IMG/VR virus record: IMGVR_UViG_3300038701_001978
Coordinates: 1-35,292 of that record
DNA length: 35,292 nucleotides
DNA from: a virus
Direction: 5' to 3' (one strand)
Part shown: positions 669-35,292 of the stretch, piece by piece
How positions within the stretch are numbered: the stretch's first letter is position 1
Layout of the letters: each line of letters starts with the position of its first letter
The notes under the pieces: generated by a model
Databases searched by the model: none
Told to the model about the DNA's origin: nothing
The model's input: the letters and a program-made list of their open reading frames with translations, nothing else
Program-made: the position numbers and the translations under genes

Positions 669-1118
669 TTGTATAAATTGGGGGAATTAAAAATTGACTA
701 CGACAAGTTATTCAAAAGAGCAAGTGCTTATGGAAGATCTAAAGGACTTGGAGATGACAGTGAAGACTTTGCTCAAGAGGCTCTCATCAAATCTTTCGAG
801 GTTGGAGCGATCAACCTTGAATACATATATAAAAACTATGTCGGAAGAGAACGAGCAGATAAAAGAATACTCAGCGCACCTCAAGGAAGTATGTCTGTTT
901 TTAAAACAATCAGCCTCGATAGACCGATTGACGAATCAGACAGTGGTTCAACAACTCTTGCCGATGTTGTCGGATTTGAATGCACTGAGTACGCTTCAGT
1001 CGGAGAGATTGAATTTTATGATGATTTACTTGGAGAAGTCTTGAGCATGGTAAAGGAAAACGAAGTTAAAGCTTGGGCATTAGGTATGTACATGAAATAT
1101 CTAGAGGATAATATATGA
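669..1118 (+). CDS. Sigma-factor region-2-like protein
   Basis: This 149-residue protein resembles the front half of a sigma-70/ECF-type sigma factor. Residues 11-45 contain the region-2 signature D-D-S-E-D-F-A-Q-E-A-L, in which helix 2.2 normally contacts the core RNA polymerase beta' subunit. Residues 82-102 (SLDRPIDE...TLADVVG) match the linker that follows region 2/3 in many sigma factors. Residues 117-149 look like the first helices of region 4, but the protein then stops. The missing helix-turn-helix lies in the next gene, which starts inside this stop (ATGA at 1115-1118). The start is uncertain: no ATG is present. TTG 669 or TTG 678 are possible, and the only strong SD (GGGGGAA, 680-686) points to 693-694. 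Confidence 0.75.
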   Translation: MYKLGELKIDYDKLFKRASAYGRSKGLGDDSEDFAQEALIKSFEVGAINLEYIYKNYVGRERADKRILSAPQGSMSVFKTISLDRPIDESDSGSTTLADVVGFECTEYASVGEIEFYDDLLGEVLSMVKENEVKAWALGMYMKYLEDNI

Positions 1119-1555
1119 TTTCAAACTCAGAAAGCAAAGTAATTGCTTATTTGCAGCAAGGCTTATCCAATCGTGACATAGCCGATAGCTTAAATGTGTC
1201 TGAAAAAACTATTAAGTTTCACCTAACTAACATTTATAAAAAGCATGAAGTAAGAAGTCGATCTGAATTAATATCTAAACTAGTTGGCTGGAGTACGCCA
1301 GAGGTGTCTATGAAAGAACTGAGTACAGAAGTAACTGAAAATAAGCAACCAACATCACAAATGCAAAAAATTGAGTTTATCAATGATAAATTCAAAGTTG
1401 GAGACTCTATAAATCAACTTCATTCAATGATGAAGGGAGTAACTAAAGACGGTATAAATCCAGCAACAGTTAATGCAGCTTGCAATTGTGTGGCAAGACT
1501 TAATGAAACAATTAATACAGCAATACAGGCGGCAAAGTTTTTAAATGAAAGATAA
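1115..1555 (+). CDS. LuxR/GerE-type helix-turn-helix protein, partner of the sigma-like gene
   Basis: Residues 3-55 form a complete LuxR-type (GerE/NarL) DNA-binding domain: S-E-S-K-V-I-A-Y-L, then G-L-S-N-R-D-I-A-D-S-L-N-V-S-E-K-T-I-K-F-H and V-R-S-R-S-E-L. No receiver or autoinducer domain precedes it. The remaining ~85 residues are helical and unrecognised, ending with a segment that repeatedly places Asn and Ala (NAACNCVARLNETINTAIQAA). LuxR-type HTH and sigma region 4 have the same fold. Because this gene is translationally coupled to a sigma region-2-like gene that lacks its own HTH, it may supply region-4-like DNA binding. It overlaps the next gene by 11 bases. Confidence 0.8.
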   Translation: MISNSESKVIAYLQQGLSNRDIADSLNVSEKTIKFHLTNIYKKHEVRSRSELISKLVGWSTPEVSMKELSTEVTENKQPTSQMQKIEFINDKFKVGDSINQLHSMMKGVTKDGINPATVNAACNCVARLNETINTAIQAAKFLNER

Positions 1556-2372
1556 TATTTGCTCAAGTTGTCAAACTAACCCAATTAAGGGGCATAAGAA
1601 CGCCAAGTGGTGTGAACCATGCTCTATTGAAAGAAGAAAATATCCGGTCTCTACAATGTCTAAAACGCAAATAGCTGAAGCTGAAAAACTAATTGGATCG
1701 ATGCCTAGAGAGATGATTGCTGCGGCACTTGATGTTTCGCTATCTAATCTTAAGCGGGCTTTTAGCGGGCGACGGCTCGGATATTATAATTATTGTGTTG
1801 CAAATCCTAAATTTGTTAAAGAAGTGAATACGTATTTTGAATCTCACACTCAAGAAGAAACCGCAAACCACTTTAATCTTTCTAAAAAACAAGTTGACCA
1901 TATTATATATAGGTACAGAAGTGCTGAATGGAAACAGATACCCTGGAAGGACTGGCAATTAATTGAACTTGTAAAAATGGCGGGTTTAATATCTCCAACT
2001 GCACAGGCTAATTTTTTTAATCGCCCTGGTGCTCATGAGGGCTCAATAAAATCGGCATGGTCAAAAAAATTCAACTTAGCAGGGGGGTGCATAAATGGTT
2101 TGCCGCAATTCAGAGCTAAGCATTTTGTAAACTGCAAAGCTAGGTATATTAGACCATTAGGTATGGATAGATCTGGTAAGAAATGCGAATTCAGAAAACT
2201 TATACTTTGGGTTGATTTAGAAAACACATTAAAAAAATCATGCCCTAGTTTTATTATTGAAGCAGTAAATGCAATGGCAAGTTTTCAGCGGTGGATTTGG
2301 GAAAGTAATGATCCAAAGCCACTAATATTAAAAATGATTAAAGAGAGAGAATATACAAAGGAAGGCTTCTAA
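1545..2372 (+). CDS. Zinc-finger and helix-turn-helix protein, 275 aa
   Basis: The N-terminus holds a four-cysteine cluster (CSSC at residues 6-9 and CEPC at 23-26), a likely zinc ribbon. Around residues 98-120 a helix-turn-helix-like stretch follows (ETANHFNLSKKQVDHIIYRY), and an earlier one may lie at residues 56-75 (REMIAAALDVSLSNLKRAF). The rest is basic and aromatic. It is probably a DNA-binding regulator or accessory DNA protein, but I recognise no family. It overlaps the LuxR-type gene upstream and the 44-residue gene downstream, so all three sit in one operon with the sigma-like gene. Confidence 0.7.
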   Translation: MKDNICSSCQTNPIKGHKNAKWCEPCSIERRKYPVSTMSKTQIAEAEKLIGSMPREMIAAALDVSLSNLKRAFSGRRLGYYNYCVANPKFVKEVNTYFESHTQEETANHFNLSKKQVDHIIYRYRSAEWKQIPWKDWQLIELVKMAGLISPTAQANFFNRPGAHEGSIKSAWSKKFNLAGGCINGLPQFRAKHFVNCKARYIRPLGMDRSGKKCEFRKLILWVDLENTLKKSCPSFIIEAVNAMASFQRWIWESNDPKPLILKMIKEREYTKEGF

Positions 2373-2952: not shown

Positions 2953-3242
2953 TGAGCAATTGGTGGGACGAGGGATCGGCCAAGAAAATAAAAGTTGATA
3001 AGGATGAACAGCCAGCACAATTTGGACTTGTTAAGTCTATTGATGATATTGAACCTCTTTATTCTCCAGAAGTAGCAGCGAAATATTTAGCTGTTTCAAT
3101 TCACACTTTACCGGGGTTGATTAGAAAAGGATTACTTGAGCCAACAAAGCAGGGGCGAAACAACTACTTTACAGCGCAACAAATAGCAGACTGTAAAAGA
3201 AAGAGGCAACAAGAGTGGCGAAGAAAAAAAGGCCAACGATAA
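2952..3242 (+). CDS. Excisionase-like (MerR/HTH_17-type) DNA-binding protein
   Basis: This 96-residue protein has a winged-helix HTH at about residues 37-82: SPEVAAKYLAVSIHTLPGLI, then G-L-L-E-P and N-Y-F-T-A-Q-Q-I-A-D-C, the layout of MerR/excisionase-family domains. The C-terminus is strongly basic (KRKRQQEWRRKKGQR). It overlaps the integrase start by 28 bases and shares its operon. A small winged-helix protein coupled to a tyrosine integrase is usually the recombination directionality factor (Xis), which bends attL/attR DNA for excision. Function is inferred from context and fold. Confidence 0.7.
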   Translation: MSNWWDEGSAKKIKVDKDEQPAQFGLVKSIDDIEPLYSPEVAAKYLAVSIHTLPGLIRKGLLEPTKQGRNNYFTAQQIADCKRKRQQEWRRKKGQR

Positions 3243-4540
3243 GAAAATCCATAAGGATTAATGGCGAGCTAATTCAAAATCGATTCACAAGTCCTGAAGA
3301 CGCTGCTGACTGGTATGCTGTTCAATTAAGAAAGAAAAAAAGAATCGAAGCTGGCCTAGATGAATCTTTAGGACCTCAAATTATAACTGTCTCAGAGTAT
3401 GCAAAAATCTTTATGCGCCGAAGGGTTGTTGAGGAAAGAGTTGTTAAGGGTACATGGCGAAGCGATGGTCAAAGGTTTGAAGATTATATTTTGCCACTTA
3501 TGGGTGATAAAGTTTTGCAGTCGATTAAATCAAATGACTGGAGTGAAGCTTTAAATCTCATTCAATCAAACCCATTAAAGGTGCTAAAAATTGCTCTTTC
3601 AAAAGCATCAAGCATTCAGGAAAAAGAAAAGATCCAAAAGAAAATAAATGCCGGCCGTACTGCTTTAAGCAATACCACTCGAAATCGAATAAGAACCTTA
3701 ATAAATACGATGTATAATGAATCGATAAAGGTTGATAAAATTTCGCTATCTAACCCAATGGCCCAGGTCGATGTAAAAGACGAGGGTGATCATGAGTTAA
3801 AATCTGATTATTGGGAGTCTACAAAAGAGTGTCGTGAATATTTAGAGGCTCACAAGATAAATGCTGAAGAAAGTGGCCATTATGGATATTGGCTTTGGGC
3901 TGTTTTCTCAATTTATTCAGGAGCCCGAGTTGGTGAGCTTTTAGCGTTAAAGCATGAAGATATAAACTTGGACCAAGGCAAAGTCCGAATTAATAAAATA
4001 TATGATCCAAACGTGAAGGCTGATGTTTATAGAACGAAGGGTTCAAGGAAGTCGCAAGCTAAGGGCCGTAAACGATCTTCTCGCTGGCTTTATCTAACAG
4101 GCCCAATTCTAGCCGTATATGAACTTCACGTTCAACATACTCCATATAACAGGCTCACAGACCATGTCTTTATGAATACTAGAGACTCGGCATTCTCTCA
4201 AATTAAAAACCAAGGCACTAGGTCCACACTTTCTGGAATTACTAGAGTGCACAAAATGATGTGTGAACAATCGGGAGTCAGAGAATTAAGGGTTCACGAT
4301 GTAAGGCATACTTTTGGAGCCCAATACATGATGAGGGGCGGCAACATTACAGCCCTTGCAAAGATCTTGGGGCACTCGAGTCAGTGGATTACAGAGCGTT
4401 ATGGGCACCTATCTGAGGCTCATATTTCTAAGGAAGTTTTGCGCGTTTCCTTTGAAAATGACGTAAAGCGTGATGCCACAGTGATGCCAGTCCTAAAAAA
4501 CAGGCAGAGTAAATCAAAGAAAAATAGAGGTTCAAAATGA
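3215..4540 (+). CDS. int: Tyrosine-family site-specific integrase
   Basis: This full-length phage integrase (441 aa) begins at GTG 3215 inside the xis-like gene. The C-terminal catalytic domain shows R238 (GARVGE), the H-x-x-R box H361-D-V-R364-H365, H387 (GHS) and nucleophile Y396 (ERYGHL). The N-terminal part contains an arm-binding-like segment and a SAM-like core-binding domain (about residues 55-180). It cuts and rejoins attP and attB to insert the phage into the host chromosome. The attP with its tRNA segment lies 67 bases downstream. One copy of the putative arm-site repeat is inside the 3' end of this gene (4470-4489). Confidence 0.95.
   Translation: MAKKKRPTIRKSIRINGELIQNRFTSPEDAADWYAVQLRKKKRIEAGLDESLGPQIITVSEYAKIFMRRRVVEERVVKGTWRSDGQRFEDYILPLMGDKVLQSIKSNDWSEALNLIQSNPLKVLKIALSKASSIQEKEKIQKKINAGRTALSNTTRNRIRTLINTMYNESIKVDKISLSNPMAQVDVKDEGDHELKSDYWESTKECREYLEAHKINAEESGHYGYWLWAVFSIYSGARVGELLALKHEDINLDQGKVRINKIYDPNVKADVYRTKGSRKSQAKGRKRSSRWLYLTGPILAVYELHVQHTPYNRLTDHVFMNTRDSAFSQIKNQGTRSTLSGITRVHKMMCEQSGVRELRVHDVRHTFGAQYMMRGGNITALAKILGHSSQWITERYGHLSEAHISKEVLRVSFENDVKRDATVMPVLKNRQSKSKKNRGSK
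4470..4489. repeat. Putative integrase arm-site repeat, copy 1
   Basis: The 20-mer GTGATGCCACAGTGATGCCA occurs here, inside the last codons of int, and again exactly at 4769-4788. Each copy is itself two tandem units of GTGATGCCA spaced 11 bp apart (one helical turn). The copies sit on either side of the tRNA-matching attP core, 118 bases before it and 114 after it. This is the geometry expected of P and P' arm-type integrase sites. Confidence 0.6.
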
Positions 4541-10069: not shown

Positions 10070-10133
10070 GTAAACCTGATAAATAAATAATTACATTAGG
10101 TAAACATAGGTAAACATGACGCGGGAGTTTACC
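10070..10133. promoter_or_regulatory. Repeat array, candidate operator at terS
   Basis: AGGTAAACAT occurs twice in exact tandem (10098-10107 and 10108-10117), giving GGTAAAC every 10 bp. A partial copy GTAAACC lies at 10070-10076 and an inverted copy GTTTACC at 10127-10133. The array spans the space between the divergent RHH-like gene and terS and overlaps the terS start codon. The 10-bp period (one helical turn) suits ribbon-helix-helix dimers. Confidence 0.55.
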
Positions 10134-10607
10134 ATTCTTTTTATGGGTAAAGAAGGAAGGCCAACCAAGTATAAACCAGAGTATTGTGAAGATATTATAG
10201 AGTACTTTTCAGTTGTGCCCTATGAAGAGAAAACAAAAACTATTGTTCCCAAAAATGGTGAGCCTTATGACATACTTGTTGATGAAGCCTCAGACTTCCC
10301 ATCTTATGAAGGATTTGCCGCAAAAATAGAAGTTCATAGAGAAACTTTGCTTAATTGGTGTGAAGAGCATCCCAAGTTTTTCGACGCATACAAAAGATGC
10401 AAGGCTTTGCAAAGGAATTGGTCTCTTGTAAATGGCCACAAAGGAACTTGCAACACGACTTTTGCAATATTCGCAGCAAAAAATCTTTATGGTTATACAA
10501 ACGGAAATCAGCCGGAAGTTGTTGTAAACAATAATAGTAACTACTCAAATATGACAAAAGAACAGCTAGAGAAAGAGCTTGAAAAACTCGAAGCTGATGA
10601 GTCGTGA
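10116..10607 (+). CDS. terS: Terminase small subunit
   Basis: The sequence G-R-P-T-K-Y-K-P-E-Y-C-E followed by G-F-A-A-K-I-E-V-H-R-E-T-L-L-N-W and F-x-A-Y-K-R-C-K-A-L-Q is typical of P22/Sf6-type small terminases. They bind the pac site and start headful packaging with TerL. The C-terminus, N-N-N-S-N then an acidic helix, is the usual TerL-contact tail. Two starts are possible: ATG 10116, within the repeat array, or ATG 10143 (MGKEGRP), which fits the family's normal N-terminus better. Neither has a well-spaced SD. The gene overlaps terL. Confidence 0.85.
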   Translation: MTREFTILFMGKEGRPTKYKPEYCEDIIEYFSVVPYEEKTKTIVPKNGEPYDILVDEASDFPSYEGFAAKIEVHRETLLNWCEEHPKFFDAYKRCKALQRNWSLVNGHKGTCNTTFAIFAAKNLYGYTNGNQPEVVVNNNSNYSNMTKEQLEKELEKLEADES

Positions 10608-12063
10608 AAAATTAATTAAGAAAATTCAAATAAAAAAGGCAATTCAGAAAATCAATTCTGAGAATAAGATTAATTCTTACTTTCCTGAAACTGGCCCTTT
10701 GCGCCGAGAACTTTACAAAAAACATACTGAGTTTTTTAAAGCCGGTGCAACCTTCACCGAGCGTCTTTTTATGGCGGCGAACAGAGTCGGCAAGACTGAA
10801 TCGGCTGGAGGCTGTGAAGTCACTTATCACTTAACAGGTGATTACCCTTTTTGGTGGGAAGGCAAACGCTTTGACAGGCCTATTGATGCTTGGGCGGCAG
10901 GGGACACTTCAACAACTGTCAGAGATATTATTCAAGAAAAACTCTTAGGGAAAATGGGAAACCTTGGATCAGGTTTAATCCCAAAAGATAAAATCCATGA
11001 GGTAACAAGAAAGCGCGGCGTTGCAGATGCCATTGACACAATTTCAGTCAAACACATTTCTGGTGGCATAAGCCATATAAGTTTGAAGTCTTATGACCAA
11101 AAAAGAGAATCCTTTCAAGGTACAAAGAAAGATTTGATTTGGCTTGATGAGGAACCGCCACTTGATATTTACACCGAGTGCTTGCTTCGTACTATGGACA
11201 CATCAGGCGGCGAGGGAGAAGACTCAGGAATCATTCTGCTGACCTTTACGCCACTTATGGGAATGAGTGAAACTGTCATGTCATTTCTCCCAAATGGCCA
11301 AGTGAGTGACATTAAAAACGATGGTTCAAAGTTTGTTGTAATGGCGACTTGGGATGACGTGCCTCATTTAAGTCAAAAGGTAAAAGATGCTCTATGGGCT
11401 TCAATCCCTCCATTTCAAAGAGATGCAAGATCAAAAGGTGTTCCACAGCTAGGAGCTGGGGCAATCTTTCCAGTGCCAGAATCAGACTTTGTTGTTGATC
11501 CGTTTGAAATTCCGGCTCATTGGCCAAAATCTTATGCGCTTGATGTTGGTTGGAATAGAACGGCGGCTTTATGGCAAGCATGGGACAGAGAGAATGATAT
11601 TGTGTATTTATACTCTGAGCACTATAGAGGGCAGGCAGAGCCTAGCATTCATGCTCAAAGTGTTAAGGCTAGAGGTGATTGGATAAAAGGCGTTATAGAT
11701 CCAGCGGCAAGAGGTCGAAGTCAAAAAGATGGCCAGCAATTAATTCAAGATTACATAGACCTTGGACTTGACCTTGATGTTGCCTTTAACGGCGTTGAGA
11801 GTGGTCTCCATGAAGTATGGCAAAGACTTTCTACTGGGCGCTTGAAGGTTTTCAAATCTATGAGTAATTGGCTTTTTGAATTCAGGCTCTATAGAAGAGA
11901 TGAAAAGGGCAAGATTGTTAAGGCAAACGATCATTTAATGGACACGACACGATATCTAATTATGTCAGGCCTAGACCGAGCAATGGTGAAGCCTGCTGAT
12001 AAACCAAAAGAAGAAAACTTCATGTATCAGTCGGGAAGCACATCTGGAGGTTGGATGGGGTAA
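10597..12063 (+). CDS. terL: Terminase large subunit
   Basis: This 488-residue packaging motor is read from ATG 10597, which overlaps the terS stop; an in-frame start at 10579 is less likely. The ATPase domain shows Walker A A60-A-N-R-V-G-K-T67 and Walker B L180-I-W-L-D-E-E186. The nuclease domain starts at Y-A-L-D316-V-G-W-N, continues with G-V-I-D368-P-A and ends with an Asp in A-N-D-H-L-M-D, giving the RNase-H-like acidic set. It cleaves concatemeric DNA and drives it into the procapsid through the portal. The small gap to the portal gene contains two copies of AACCTTTGTAT. Confidence 0.96.
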   Translation: MSREKLIKKIQIKKAIQKINSENKINSYFPETGPLRRELYKKHTEFFKAGATFTERLFMAANRVGKTESAGGCEVTYHLTGDYPFWWEGKRFDRPIDAWAAGDTSTTVRDIIQEKLLGKMGNLGSGLIPKDKIHEVTRKRGVADAIDTISVKHISGGISHISLKSYDQKRESFQGTKKDLIWLDEEPPLDIYTECLLRTMDTSGGEGEDSGIILLTFTPLMGMSETVMSFLPNGQVSDIKNDGSKFVVMATWDDVPHLSQKVKDALWASIPPFQRDARSKGVPQLGAGAIFPVPESDFVVDPFEIPAHWPKSYALDVGWNRTAALWQAWDRENDIVYLYSEHYRGQAEPSIHAQSVKARGDWIKGVIDPAARGRSQKDGQQLIQDYIDLGLDLDVAFNGVESGLHEVWQRLSTGRLKVFKSMSNWLFEFRLYRRDEKGKIVKANDHLMDTTRYLIMSGLDRAMVKPADKPKEENFMYQSGSTSGGWMG

Positions 12064-12082
12064 AGGATGATTACATCATGTA

Positions 12083-12120
12083 AACCTTTGTATTAAAAAG
12101 ATTACGCTTAACCTTTGTAT
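12083..12120. repeat. Direct repeat AACCTTTGTAT upstream of the portal gene
   Basis: The 11-mer occurs at 12083-12093 and 12110-12120, starts 27 bp apart. The second copy contains the TTG proposed as portal start, and the first follows GTAAACCT, a word also found in the terS operator array (10070-10077). It may be a duplicated ribosome-entry region or a binding site. It is short, so chance is possible. Confidence 0.35.
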
Positions 12121-15160: not shown

Positions 15161-15192
15161 AACCCTTTTCCTTTTGCCGGACAATAACCGGC
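15161..15192 (+). promoter_or_regulatory. Leader hairpin, element A (before the coat gene)
   Basis: AACCCTT (15161-15167) is followed by stem GCCGG (15176-15180), loop ACAATAA and CCGGC (15188-15192), just upstream of the coat SD TGGAG. A second copy at 26494-26522 keeps AACCCTT and the loop A-Y-AATAA, but its stem is GCGGG/CCCGC: one pair differs and the pairing is kept. It has no T-tract after the stem, so it is not a normal terminator. It is probably an mRNA-stabilising or translation-enhancing leader. Confidence 0.5.
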
Positions 15193-26493: not shown

Positions 26494-26522
26494 AACCCTT
26501 AACTTGCGGGATAATAACCCGC
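26494..26522 (+). promoter_or_regulatory. Leader hairpin, element B
   Basis: AACCCTT (26494-26500), then stem GCGGG (26506-26510), loop ATAATAA and CCCGC (26518-26522), with the SD AAAGGA right after. It matches the leader of the coat gene (15161-15192) in order, conserved AACCCTT, loop length and loop sequence. The stem differs at one position with the pairing partner changed to match. This supports a selected RNA structure in front of two late genes. Confidence 0.5.
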
Positions 26523-26535
26523 CAAAGGATATAAA

Positions 26536-26817
26536 ATGGCAAAAATAAAAATTGAGATCGAGGTCTCCAAAGAAACTTATGAATTAGGTCAAGGCCTTGT
26601 TGCAATGCTTACGGCTGTAATGGTTGCAAAAAAGGATGGATGGCAAATGGGAACTGATATCCCTGCTGTTGCAATGGCGGCTTTTGGTCAAATGGCTGCA
26701 ATTGAAGGAATTGATTTGATTGATGAAGAAATCAAAGAAGATCCATCAGCTTTTGGTAAATCATTAATGTGTGCTCTTGCTGATGGATACGGTGCTGTTA
26801 AGGCAGAGGAGGAATAA
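26536..26817 (+). CDS. Hypothetical protein behind leader hairpin B, 93 aa
   Basis: It has AAAGGA nine bases before ATG 26536. The product starts with a strand M-A-K-I-K-I-E-I-E-V-S-K-E-T-Y-E-L, then an Ala/Met-rich helical region (AMLTAVMVAKKDGWQMGTDI) without a clear membrane span, and an acidic C-terminus. I recognise no family. Sharing its structured leader with the coat gene suggests that it is made in large amounts late in infection, for example as a capsid decoration or abundant scaffold-like protein. That is inference only. Confidence 0.6.
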   Translation: MAKIKIEIEVSKETYELGQGLVAMLTAVMVAKKDGWQMGTDIPAVAMAAFGQMAAIEGIDLIDEEIKEDPSAFGKSLMCALADGYGAVKAEEE

Positions 26818-31886: not shown

Positions 31887-32142
31887 TGAGCGAGTGATTT
31901 TAGTGCATTATCTTCAAAATTGTGCAGAAGAGCTTCGTCAAGCTTTTCGTAAAAATAACCTTAAGATACGTATTTTTAATGACCCAGATGTCATTTATAA
32001 AATGGAGGTTGAGGAACTAAAAAAAGTTGCTGATAATTTTTATTATACATTGAAAGCTTTTAAAACAGCTTTTCCTAGCCCAGATGAATTTTTACAAAAT
32101 ATTCAAAACAGTTTATTGGATCGAGACGGTGGGAATGATTAA
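31873..32142 (+). CDS. Hypothetical protein, 89 aa, before the repressor
   Basis: ATG 31873 has TAGGAT seven bases upstream. The helical product has an N-terminal Y-L-Q-N-C-A-E-E-L-R-Q-A-F-R-K-N-N and a middle helix E-V-E-E-L-K-K-V-A-D-N-F-Y-Y-T-L. It ends sharing TTAA with the stop of the leftward CI-like gene. No family is recognised. Its position beside the repressor suggests a lysogeny-associated gene, and it is divergent from the unknown gene at 31132. Confidence 0.55.
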   Translation: MLCVNERVILVHYLQNCAEELRQAFRKNNLKIRIFNDPDVIYKMEVEELKKVADNFYYTLKAFKTAFPSPDEFLQNIQNSLLDRDGGND

Positions 32143-32705
32143 TTCACTTTTAAAAGTTTGTAGACTTTATCTAGGACGACGTCTTTTTCCTTTTTCTCTT
32201 TTTTAGCATCAGCCTCATTAAGCTTAATCTGAATTTTTTGAAACTCTTCTAACTGCCGAAATATTGTTGGAAGTTTCGGGTTAATATCAGCAAGATGATC
32301 ATAACTACGAATTAATTTAATTTCAGCCTGTAAGTCCTTGATAGTATTTTTCATTTTTTCGATTTGTGCCTCATAACTCTGAACAGACTTAGCCTCTTGG
32401 TTGTTTTTTATAAGGGCCTCAATATTGGCGAGTTGCTTGGCTATGTCTTTAGGTTCACCATAGGTTGTGGCACCTTCACGAACCTCTAAATGCTTATTTG
32501 GGTTTTCATATAGATCAGACACCTCACATTTAAGAGCCCTAGCTAGAGAGGATAATTTCTCTGGGCTTGGTGTGGAGATGCCTTGTTCGTATTTTTGATA
32601 GCCACGTACTGATATATCGACAATTTCAGCTAATTCAGCCTGAGTAAGGTCAGCATTCTTTCTTCGTCGTTTTAGGTTATCTTTTAAAAACAATGTATTA
32701 TCCAT
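32139..32705 (-). CDS. CI-like repressor with XRE HTH and coiled coil
   Basis: Residues 6-65 form an XRE HTH: L-K-D-N-L-K-R-R-R-K-N-A-D-L-T-Q-A-E-L-A-E-I-V, then S-V-R-G-Y-Q-K-Y-E-Q-G, P-S-P-E-K-L-S-S-L-A-R. Residues ~85-175 are a coiled coil (YEAQIEKMKNTIKDLQAEIK) in place of the LexA-type self-cleaving domain of lambda CI, so induction by RecA cleavage is unlikely. It is divergent from the Cro-like gene, with a shared operator region between them. Its -10 TATAAT ends only seven bases before the ATG, so its mRNA is probably leaderless. Confidence 0.8.
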   Translation of the reverse strand: MDNTLFLKDNLKRRRKNADLTQAELAEIVDISVRGYQKYEQGISTPSPEKLSSLARALKCEVSDLYENPNKHLEVREGATTYGEPKDIAKQLANIEALIKNNQEAKSVQSYEAQIEKMKNTIKDLQAEIKLIRSYDHLADINPKLPTIFRQLEEFQKIQIKLNEADAKKEKKEKDVVLDKVYKLLKVN

Positions 32706-33723: not shown

Positions 33724-34443
33724 GTGAGTAATTTACCAGAGAAGAAAGAAGAGAGTCAGCCTGTAAATATTCAAGCTGCATTGCTTGAGATAGTTCAAAG
33801 AAAGGATATCGACCTAGATAAACTAGAGCGTTATATTGATTTGCAGTTCAAAATGGAGGAGCGCCAATCAAAAATGGCATTCATGAATGCAATGGCTGGC
33901 TTCCAAGGTGATTGCCCTTCAATCCCAAAGTCAAAAAGAGTGAACTTTAAAAGCGTTGATTACAAATACTCTCCAATAGAAGAAATTACGAAAATAATTA
34001 ACCCGATCACTCAGAAGTGGGGCTTGTCTTATGCCTTTGATATTAGAAAAACAGAATCACCAAATGAAAATAATCTAGTAACAATCATTTCTCATGAGTC
34101 AGGGCATTCAAAAGAGTTTAATTATTTCTTTAATCCAATTCATAATGACGAACGTATGAATCGAAGCCAACAGGCTAAATCATCTATTACTTATGCAAAA
34201 AGAGCCGCTTTAGAAAATGCTCTTGGGATAGTAACAGGCGGTGAAGACAACGATGCCAGGGGTGAAGACACACAAGCCATTGACGAAATGCAATTAAATC
34301 AAATCAAAGCACTTATTGAAGAAACTAAAACTGACCTTGGAAAGTTCTTAGGCTTCATGAAAGTTGAAAGTCTTGAAGCAATGACAAGTTTTGATGCTAA
34401 ACGGGCAATTGTAGCTCTTAAGCAAAAGAAGGCTAAGTTATGA
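33724..34443 (+). CDS. erf: ERF-family single-strand annealing protein
   Basis: The 239-residue product matches the ERF superfamily (P22 Erf): F-M-N-A-M-A-G-F-Q in the N-terminal part, Y-K-Y-S-P-I-E-E-I-T-K-I-I-N-P-I, and the conserved block S-S-I-T-Y-A-K-R-A-A-L-E-N-A-L-G-I-V-T. It forms rings on single-stranded DNA and anneals complementary strands, helping genome circularisation and recombination. It starts at GTG 33724 with GAGGG nine bases upstream. It overlaps the exonuclease gene by four bases (ATGA) and works with it and SSB. Confidence 0.9.
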   Translation: MSNLPEKKEESQPVNIQAALLEIVQRKDIDLDKLERYIDLQFKMEERQSKMAFMNAMAGFQGDCPSIPKSKRVNFKSVDYKYSPIEEITKIINPITQKWGLSYAFDIRKTESPNENNLVTIISHESGHSKEFNYFFNPIHNDERMNRSQQAKSSITYAKRAALENALGIVTGGEDNDARGEDTQAIDEMQLNQIKALIEETKTDLGKFLGFMKVESLEAMTSFDAKRAIVALKQKKAKL

Positions 34444-35063
34444 GCTTCACTATATCAAAACACGCGCATGGCACTGAAGGATGGACTCTTGACCGATTAG
34501 GGAAGATTACGGCCAGCACTTCAGATAAAATAATAACAAAAACGGGCAAGCTATCCTCTCAATCAAGTGACCTTGTAAGCAGGGCTGTAGCTGAAGTTAT
34601 TTTAGGAAGGCCAGACATTAGTTTTCAATCTTTTGCAATGGAGCGTGGTCTTGATCTTGAGTCTGAAGCTTTGGAGTATTTCAATTTCACGGGCAATCAT
34701 AATTTTAAAGCTTGTGGCTTTGTTAATTCAGGGCTTGGTTATGGGTGCTCGCCGGATGGAATAGACCTAGAAAAAAGCATTGGTCTTGAATTGAAGTGCC
34801 CAGAAGCTCACACACATTTGGCTTATTTAGCAAGTAGCGAAATGCCTGATAAATACAAAATGCAAGTTCAGTTCTCTCTTTGGGTGACAGGTTTTGAATC
34901 ATGGGTTTTTGGTTCTTATCATCCTGAATTACCAGGCTTTGAAATTACAGTTGAAAGAGATGAGAAGTTAATCGCAGCTTTGGCAAAAGAAGTGCCTAAA
35001 TGTGTAAGTCAAATTGATGAAATGGTTATTAAACTTAGGGAAATAATGGAGATAGCGGCGTGA
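34440..35063 (+). CDS. YqaJ/lambda-exo-type recombination exonuclease
   Basis: The 207-residue protein shows the PD-(D/E)xK pattern of lambda-exonuclease-like enzymes: R-L-G-K-I-T-A-S near residue 20, E-S-E-A-L-E-Y-F near 77, then G-C-S-P-D-G-I (catalytic Asp) and L-E-L-K-C-P (ExK), with Y-K-M-Q-V-Q-F-S-L-W-V-T-G after it. It would digest one strand from double-strand ends to give 3' tails for the ERF protein. The start overlaps erf and the end overlaps ssb, so three recombination genes are translationally coupled. Confidence 0.9.
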   Translation: MSFTISKHAHGTEGWTLDRLGKITASTSDKIITKTGKLSSQSSDLVSRAVAEVILGRPDISFQSFAMERGLDLESEALEYFNFTGNHNFKACGFVNSGLGYGCSPDGIDLEKSIGLELKCPEAHTHLAYLASSEMPDKYKMQVQFSLWVTGFESWVFGSYHPELPGFEITVERDEKLIAALAKEVPKCVSQIDEMVIKLREIMEIAA

Positions 35064-35292
35064 ACAGAGCAGAATTAATTGGAAGACTTGGAAAAGATCC
35101 AGAGATTAAAACGGTCAATAGTGGTGACACTGTTTGCCGATTGAGTGTGGCTACGTCCGAAAAATGGACAGATAAAGATGGCCAAAAGCAAGAAAAAACC
35201 CAGTGGCATAATGTTGTTGTTTGGGGGAAGCTTGCTGAAGTTTGTGGAAAGTATCTTAAAAAAGGTTCACAAGTTTTCTTAGCAGGAAATCT
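35060..35292 (+). CDS. ssb: Single-stranded DNA-binding protein SSB, N-terminal part
   Basis: It starts at GTG 35060 overlapping the exonuclease stop. The N-terminus M-N-R-A-E-L-I-G-R-L-G-K-D-P-E, then V-C-R-L-S-V-A-T-S-E and W-H-N-V-V-V-W-G-K-L-A-E, is a standard bacterial/phage SSB OB fold. The frame is cut by the window end. The terminal overlap shows it continues at positions 2-301. The last bases (35290 onward) differ from the repeat copy and are probably end-of-assembly errors. Confidence 0.93.
   Translation, partial: MNRAELIGRLGKDPEIKTVNSGDTVCRLSVATSEKWTDKDGQKQEKTQWHNVVVWGKLAEVCGKYLKKGSQVFLAGN
35164..35289. repeat. Terminal direct repeat, second copy
   Basis: This is identical to positions 4-129. 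It marks the closing point of the circular map, inside ssb. Confidence 0.9.

Follow-up and report, generated by a model that had tools for sequence, protein, structure and literature searches.

Sigma factors are the subunits of RNA polymerase that tell the enzyme where transcription starts and, to our knowledge, a single chain almost always holds both region 2 and region 4. Region 2 attaches to the beta-prime clamp helices and recognises the -10 element; region 4 contacts the beta-flap tip and recognises the -35 element (PMC7892883). These jobs are divided between two proteins in SigO-RsoA of Bacillus subtilis (PMC8103513) and in gp55 with gp33 of phage T4 (PMC7892883). The domains of SigO and RsoA are given the other way round in PMC10141391; as far as its title goes, the primary paper cited in PMC8103513 supports RsoA as the region 2 protein.

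The phage locus described here resembles SigO-RsoA in that sigma-2-like and HTH functions lie on two adjacent proteins. However, the HTH protein of the Bacillus pair is a true relative of sigma region 4, whereas the phage HTH is of LuxR or Fis type; the HTH protein at the present locus also has an extra domain (CT), its LuxR-CT arrangement accompanies complete sigma factors as well, and the genes belong to a phage operon that is known here from sequence. With gp55-gp33 the locus would share a divergent phage sigma factor, a separate protein at the flap and a link to late genes, but the T4 system needs the sliding clamp, and the likeness is an analogy. We know of no description of gp33 as a LuxR-type HTH protein. 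ECF (group IV) sigma factors are similar in size and in the fold of region 2, and the full-length relatives of the phage protein have the same order of region 2, linker and region 4; the present protein differs in having no region 4 and in a linker finger, SLDxPI...TLADxI, that resembles that of sigma-A. Finally, the phage HTH and a core LuxR protein of Bdellovibrionales, of LuxR/NarL type, have a near-identical motif (EKTxKFHLTNIYKK), but the phage version is fused to CT or adjoins a sigma gene.

The window (the whole stretch of DNA that was analysed, 35,292 bases of an IMG/VR virus record) is read as a temperate phage, with portal, scaffold and major head proteins among its PHROG matches. 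Its relevant features are as follows.

669-1118, plus strand: ORF1, sigma-70-family protein lacking region 4, 149 aa from TTG 669
680-686, plus strand: GGGGGAA, possible ribosome-binding site 7 nt before TTG 694, from sequence
694-1044, plus strand: nested +1-frame ORF within ORF1, orphan protein of 116 aa, TTG start
699-857, plus strand: three-helix part of sigma region 2, ORF1 residues 11-63, with DSEDFAQEAL (AlphaFold model, VIA-align)
909-974, plus strand: region 3.2 (sigma finger) motif ISLDRPIDESDSGSTTLADVVG (family profile alignment to the SigA finger, weak E)
999-1112, plus strand: two C-terminal helices of ORF1 (residues 111-148) where region 4.1 would be, without the HTH (model; alignment with relative L046)
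1115-1555, plus strand: ORF2, LuxR-type HTH fused to CT, 146 aa, ATG inside the ATGA stop overlap
1121-1276, plus strand: LuxR/GerE HTH domain, ORF2 residues 3-54 (Pfam GerE, E=5.4e-17)
1352-1552, plus strand: CT domain, ORF2 residues 80-146, helical, core motif TVNAACNCVARLNETINTAI (conservation; model)
1545-2372, plus strand: companion HTH protein, conserved downstream gene of the cassette (weak PHROG 'D5-like' match)
3215-4540: integrase
10116-10607, plus strand: likely small terminase ORF, called by position
10579-12063, plus strand: terminase large subunit, start of the late genes (PHROG, E=1.5e-28)
32139-32705, minus strand: repressor
33724-35063: Erf-like and exonuclease genes

A sequence-only reading of this DNA had described ORF1 and ORF2 as a sigma factor split into two translationally coupled genes; the extents of both genes and their ATGA overlap are as it had given them, and the CT domain and the +1-frame ORF had gone unseen. 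TTG 678 is an equally possible start of ORF1. To the left of the cassette are an ssb-like gene and the end of the window, to its right is the integrase, and the terminases follow about 9 kb downstream; the end of ORF2 overlaps the regulatory-looking companion gene. Open frames cross both ends of the record (35060-35290 and 2-301, the left one ssb-like by eye), which fits a circularly permuted or a cut phage genome. Relatives occur in Bdellovibrionota MAGs (L046 and L047), with one more on a 3-kb contig binned as Flavobacterium, and a search for the companion gene in 140 + 58 related genomes found no copies beyond L046 and L047. The host of the window phage is probably a Bdellovibrio-like predatory bacterium.

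Used alone, ORF1 gave no Pfam or PHROG match, no tblastn match in 50,697 phage records, and nothing in a scan of viral contigs with ORF1 as sole query. A sigma profile built from full-length relatives only, several of which carry Pfam regions 2 and 4, recovered ORF1 at E=4e-18 and the sigma of its relative L002 at 2e-17 when run against 20,000 shuffled decoys; more divergent region-4-less proteins scored more weakly with this profile, several of them unseparated from the decoys, and are united by the whole-family profile. Against the PDB, the family profile listed six sequences at E<=10, all of them sigma factors and each individually weak (E 0.4-1.8), and two relatives, L003 and L041, gave Sigma70_r3 matches below cut-off. 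The AlphaFold model of ORF1 has a low pTM (0.43) and shows three confident helices over residues 11-63 (pLDDT about 87-96 at residues 11-60), an extended, loose linker containing the finger motif SLDRPI...TLADVVG, and C-terminal helices at residues 111-127 and 131-148 with no HTH beyond them. VIA-align placed sigma region 2 in each of the eight best rows for this model (Z 6.8-5.2 over 59-72 residues), with the first unrelated row following at Z 4.6; at Z values as modest as these, the model lends support to the assignment but does not prove it. Foldseek returned nothing under E=0.001 for the same model, its best row being a sigma factor at E=0.22. The assignment of region 2 and linker to ORF1 made in the sequence-only reading is supported by profile and model, and the model also fits its view that the protein stops at the opening helices of region 4. 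Taken together, sequence and model indicate that ORF1 is a real sigma-70-family protein that has the region 2 fold and the region 3.2 finger and is without the region-4 HTH.

A truncated protein with a divergent region 2 might instead resemble PhyR and act as a sigma mimic or decoy, tying up polymerase or an anti-sigma factor, since non-initiating sigma-like domains are known (PhyR; PMC8103513). We regard this as very improbable for ORF1, which keeps the finger motif, an element that works inside the initiating complex, and whose full-length relatives fill the same operon slot.

About 28 related cassettes were found by profile search, located in uncultured phages and in prophages of Bdellovibrionota; full-length and region-4-less sigmas are equally frequent among them (14 vs 14 distinct loci). 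A search with the CT domain found 35 viral loci and three genome loci, and sigma-like genes adjoin CT in most of them. Among the full-length sigmas, that of L041 matches Pfam region 2 (E=0.0017), region 3 (below cut-off) and region 4 (E=0.0003) in that order, those of L029, L045, L008 and L007 match region 2 followed by region 4, and that of L013 matches region 4 at E=1e-8. L046, a prophage-like locus found in a Bdellovibrionaceae MAG, is the closest full-length relative of the window; its sigma, of 203 aa and with an intact region 4, is followed by a LuxR-CT gene whose CT is 79% identical to that of the window. When ORF1 and the L046 sigma are aligned, the region-4 HTH is present in L046 and absent in the window and L002, and a tree of the region-2/finger part joins the window and L002 to L046 in a 98/96 clade. 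The region-4-less sigmas form three clusters on the sigma tree, with at least two changes of region-4 state. The L002 sigma is only 42% identical to ORF1 yet ends at the same place, which argues against a recent nonsense mutation. A programmed frameshift from ORF1 into ORF2 was considered and discarded, the HTH gene being separate and upstream of the sigma gene in L003, L021, L024 and L028.

The sigma genes of this family also appear to encode a second protein. About three quarters of them (about 21 relatives) contain a +1-frame ORF of about 80-130 codons, the exceptions being L003, L006, L016, L017, L019 and L023. In 500 synonymous-codon shuffles the +1 opening was never matched for the window, L013, L021 or L026. 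Compared with 266 control tiles taken from other genes of the same loci, the 26 sigma genes far more often have a +1 ORF of >=100 codons (65% vs 4.1%), and the same percentages were obtained for a stop-absence test at p<0.05. A leave-one-out +1 profile scored the real products above their own synonymous shuffles at a mean z of 7.6, with z>2 in 19 of 20 cases (5.1 for the window; the exception is L013, at 0.1), whereas the HTH gene next to the sigma gene, used as control in the same phages, gave a mean z of 0.07-0.45. The +2 frame of the sigma genes, which is not open, gave a mean z of 3.7, the expected echo of nucleotide constraint. Third codon positions diverge less inside the +1 ORF than elsewhere, with values of 0.11 versus 0.43 downstream for L007/L008 and 0.30 versus 0.61 in the companion gene for L021/L024, and their divergence is normal in sigma genes that have no overlap. 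A further locus, L089, which had been left out of the +1 profile, matches it at E=1.4e-16. Start sites and ribosome-binding sites of the +1 ORF are not uniform among relatives, standalone homologues of its product were sought in the loci lacking the overlap and none was found, and the protein has no convincing Pfam, PHROG, PDB-sequence or phage-record match.

These comparisons strongly support the +1 ORF as a conserved overlapping coding sequence. As in known nested or alternate-frame phage genes, two proteins would come from one stretch of DNA; unlike those cases, the second gene sits inside the gene of a sigma factor and is kept in phages that have diverged widely, an arrangement on which a brief literature search found no paper. 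Such an overlap is a clean case of dual coding, and the +1 product is an obvious candidate regulator of the sigma factor in whose gene it lies. The CT gene of L021, L024, L026 and L028 begins, in a different frame, within the 3' end of the sigma gene, which is thereby overlapped twice; second codon positions vary most at these doubly overlapped 3' ends.

The LuxR-type HTH that had been recognised by eye in ORF2 is confirmed as a member of the LuxR/GerE family, with a score of 61.6 bits against a curated cut-off of 23.5 and VIA-align rows for ComA, RcsB, NarL and similar proteins at Z about 10. Part of the same stretch matches Sigma70_r4_2 at 3.5e-5, below cut-off, GerE/LuxR remaining the best match. 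The CT domain, modelled as helices 82-93, 95-111 and 116-145, is very strongly conserved, is present in all related cassettes and has no Pfam or PHROG family; it is a previously undescribed domain. It occurs alone or joined to a LuxR or Fis HTH, the LuxR fusions being those of the window, L002, L013, L014 and L046 and the Fis-type fusion that of L047.

A separate HTH gene is found at 11 of the 14 region-4-less loci (LuxR 7, Fis-like 4). The LuxR gene is fused to CT in the window and L002, stands separately upstream in L003, L021, L024 and L028, and lies 1.3 kb upstream in L023; the Fis-like gene is directly upstream of the sigma gene in L006, L017, L019 and L020; and no LuxR- or Fis-like gene was found within the records of L018, L025 and L026. 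Full-length loci have an HTH gene in 3/14 or 4/14 cases, with LuxR-CT in L046, L013 and L014, and the full-length locus L047/L033 has a Fis-CT (HTH_8, E=3e-7). The corresponding Fisher test gives p=0.007 or 0.02 with kinship ignored and 0.057 without L023 counted, and the association is not significant once kinship is counted, there being too few independent pairs. Hence the tendency of HTH genes to accompany region-4-less sigmas more often than full-length ones is suggestive. The tree used as reference for this paired test, that of the companion gene (D5+CT), is discordant with the sigma tree.

These patterns bear on whether ORF1 and ORF2 are two parts of one sigma factor. The truncated sigma and the recurrent separate HTH gene agree with the split proposed in the sequence-only reading, and homologues with the second gene do exist. 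However, the presence of LuxR-CT beside an intact sigma in L046 indicates that ORF2 is not a detached region 4, three region-4-less phages have no LuxR- or Fis-like gene in their records, and similar LuxR proteins occur elsewhere, both as a core protein of Bdellovibrionales and in the Manatee Spring phage (L064), where no sigma lies beside it. The tree implies that the window lineage already had LuxR-CT next to the sigma when it lost region 4, and the company of LuxR-CT with complete sigmas suggests that it had another role first. For the supposed split gene, a better account is that the sigma lost region 4 while an HTH partner was already present, a partner that may now substitute for that region. 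The overlapping gene is better supported than the sigma split.

It is rather unlikely, in our estimate, that ORF1 acts alone as a gp55-like, region-2-only sigma on extended -10 promoters, with LuxR-CT an ordinary regulator or classical activator that is in the operon by chance. There is precedent in T4, where gp55 gives basal transcription and late promoters are without a conserved -35 element (PMC7892883), and solo action would suit both the partnerless L018, L025 and L026 and the coexistence of LuxR-CT with full sigmas. What it leaves unexplained is the frequency of an adjacent HTH gene and the recurrence of two unrelated HTH types.

Improbable, too, is a reading in which a host protein is recruited by the region-4-less sigma; the LuxR of the phage would then be a captured copy of the core Bdellovibrionales LuxR, and phages that carry no copy would use that of the host. 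Of 138 Bdellovibrionales genomes, 124 indeed encode a standalone LuxR HTH protein of 134 aa, with one match per genome in nearly every case, and the phage LuxR of L003 lies near it on the LuxR tree. Capture from a host is thus plausible, but the LuxR tree, with one of its 20 inner branches strongly supported, cannot prove it. In the genome examined, the core LuxR gene (L049:4170-4574, minus strand) lies beside a CheY-like gene.

We give about an even chance to the reading that ORF1 is a minimal sigma that pairs with LuxR-CT to make a phage-specific holoenzyme of two components serving the late operon, the sigma gene holding the nested +1 gene besides. Region 2 of ORF1 would hold the clamp of the host polymerase and recognise a -10-like element, with the finger reaching into the active-site channel. 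The lost part is the region-4 HTH, which normally binds the beta-flap and the -35 element; LuxR-CT from the overlapping gene would be its most likely replacement, its HTH binding promoter DNA upstream and either its CT domain or the leftover terminal helices of ORF1 tying the two proteins together. We infer this physical partnership and the substitution at flap and -35 element from the recurrent HTH neighbours and the operon layout. As a variant of the two-component sigma idea it would be new. Both T4 gp55-gp33 and SigO-RsoA suggest that upstream recognition can be outsourced, and the loss of region 4 at least two times, usually beside a LuxR- or Fis-type HTH, makes such outsourcing directly testable. 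More broadly, and tentatively, a phage lineage with some members in Bdellovibrionota may use modular sigmas, consisting of region 2 and finger, with exchangeable HTH partners (LuxR, Fis-type or the LuxR of the host), its sigma gene also coding for an unrelated +1 protein that may regulate the sigma. Through these cassettes gene control becomes more accessible in uncultured phages, including phages of predatory bacteria.

The late promoters would be the target of such a pair. In L002 the terminase genes come right after the cassette, as they do by ORF layout in L013 and L017; this points to late genes as the target and fits the late-gene control that had been proposed from the sequence. The distance of about 9 kb between cassette and terminases in the window counts against the two-component reading, as does the outcome of the promoter search. 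A shared promoter motif before the late genes, proposed as a check in the sequence-only reading, was searched for and none was established, and consensus sigma-70 promoter matches were no more numerous than in shuffled sequence. The element ATTACATnAnGTAAAC occurs twice in the window, at 10090 ahead of the terminase genes and at 12070 between the terminase and portal genes; in 15 related loci it had one match within 2 mismatches (L045) and no exact one. The two copies, ATTACATTAGGTAAAC at 10090-10105 and ATTACATCATGTAAAC at 12070-12085, contain the dyad TTACATnATGTAA and are a candidate operator.

Two hairpins with near-identical loops and compensatory stems were also seen at approximate positions 15175-15192 (GCCGG-ACAATAA-CCGGC, ahead of the major head gene) and 26505-26523 (GCGGG-ATAATAA-CCCGC, ahead of the ORF at 26536), and this pair is possibly a shared RNA element of the late operon.
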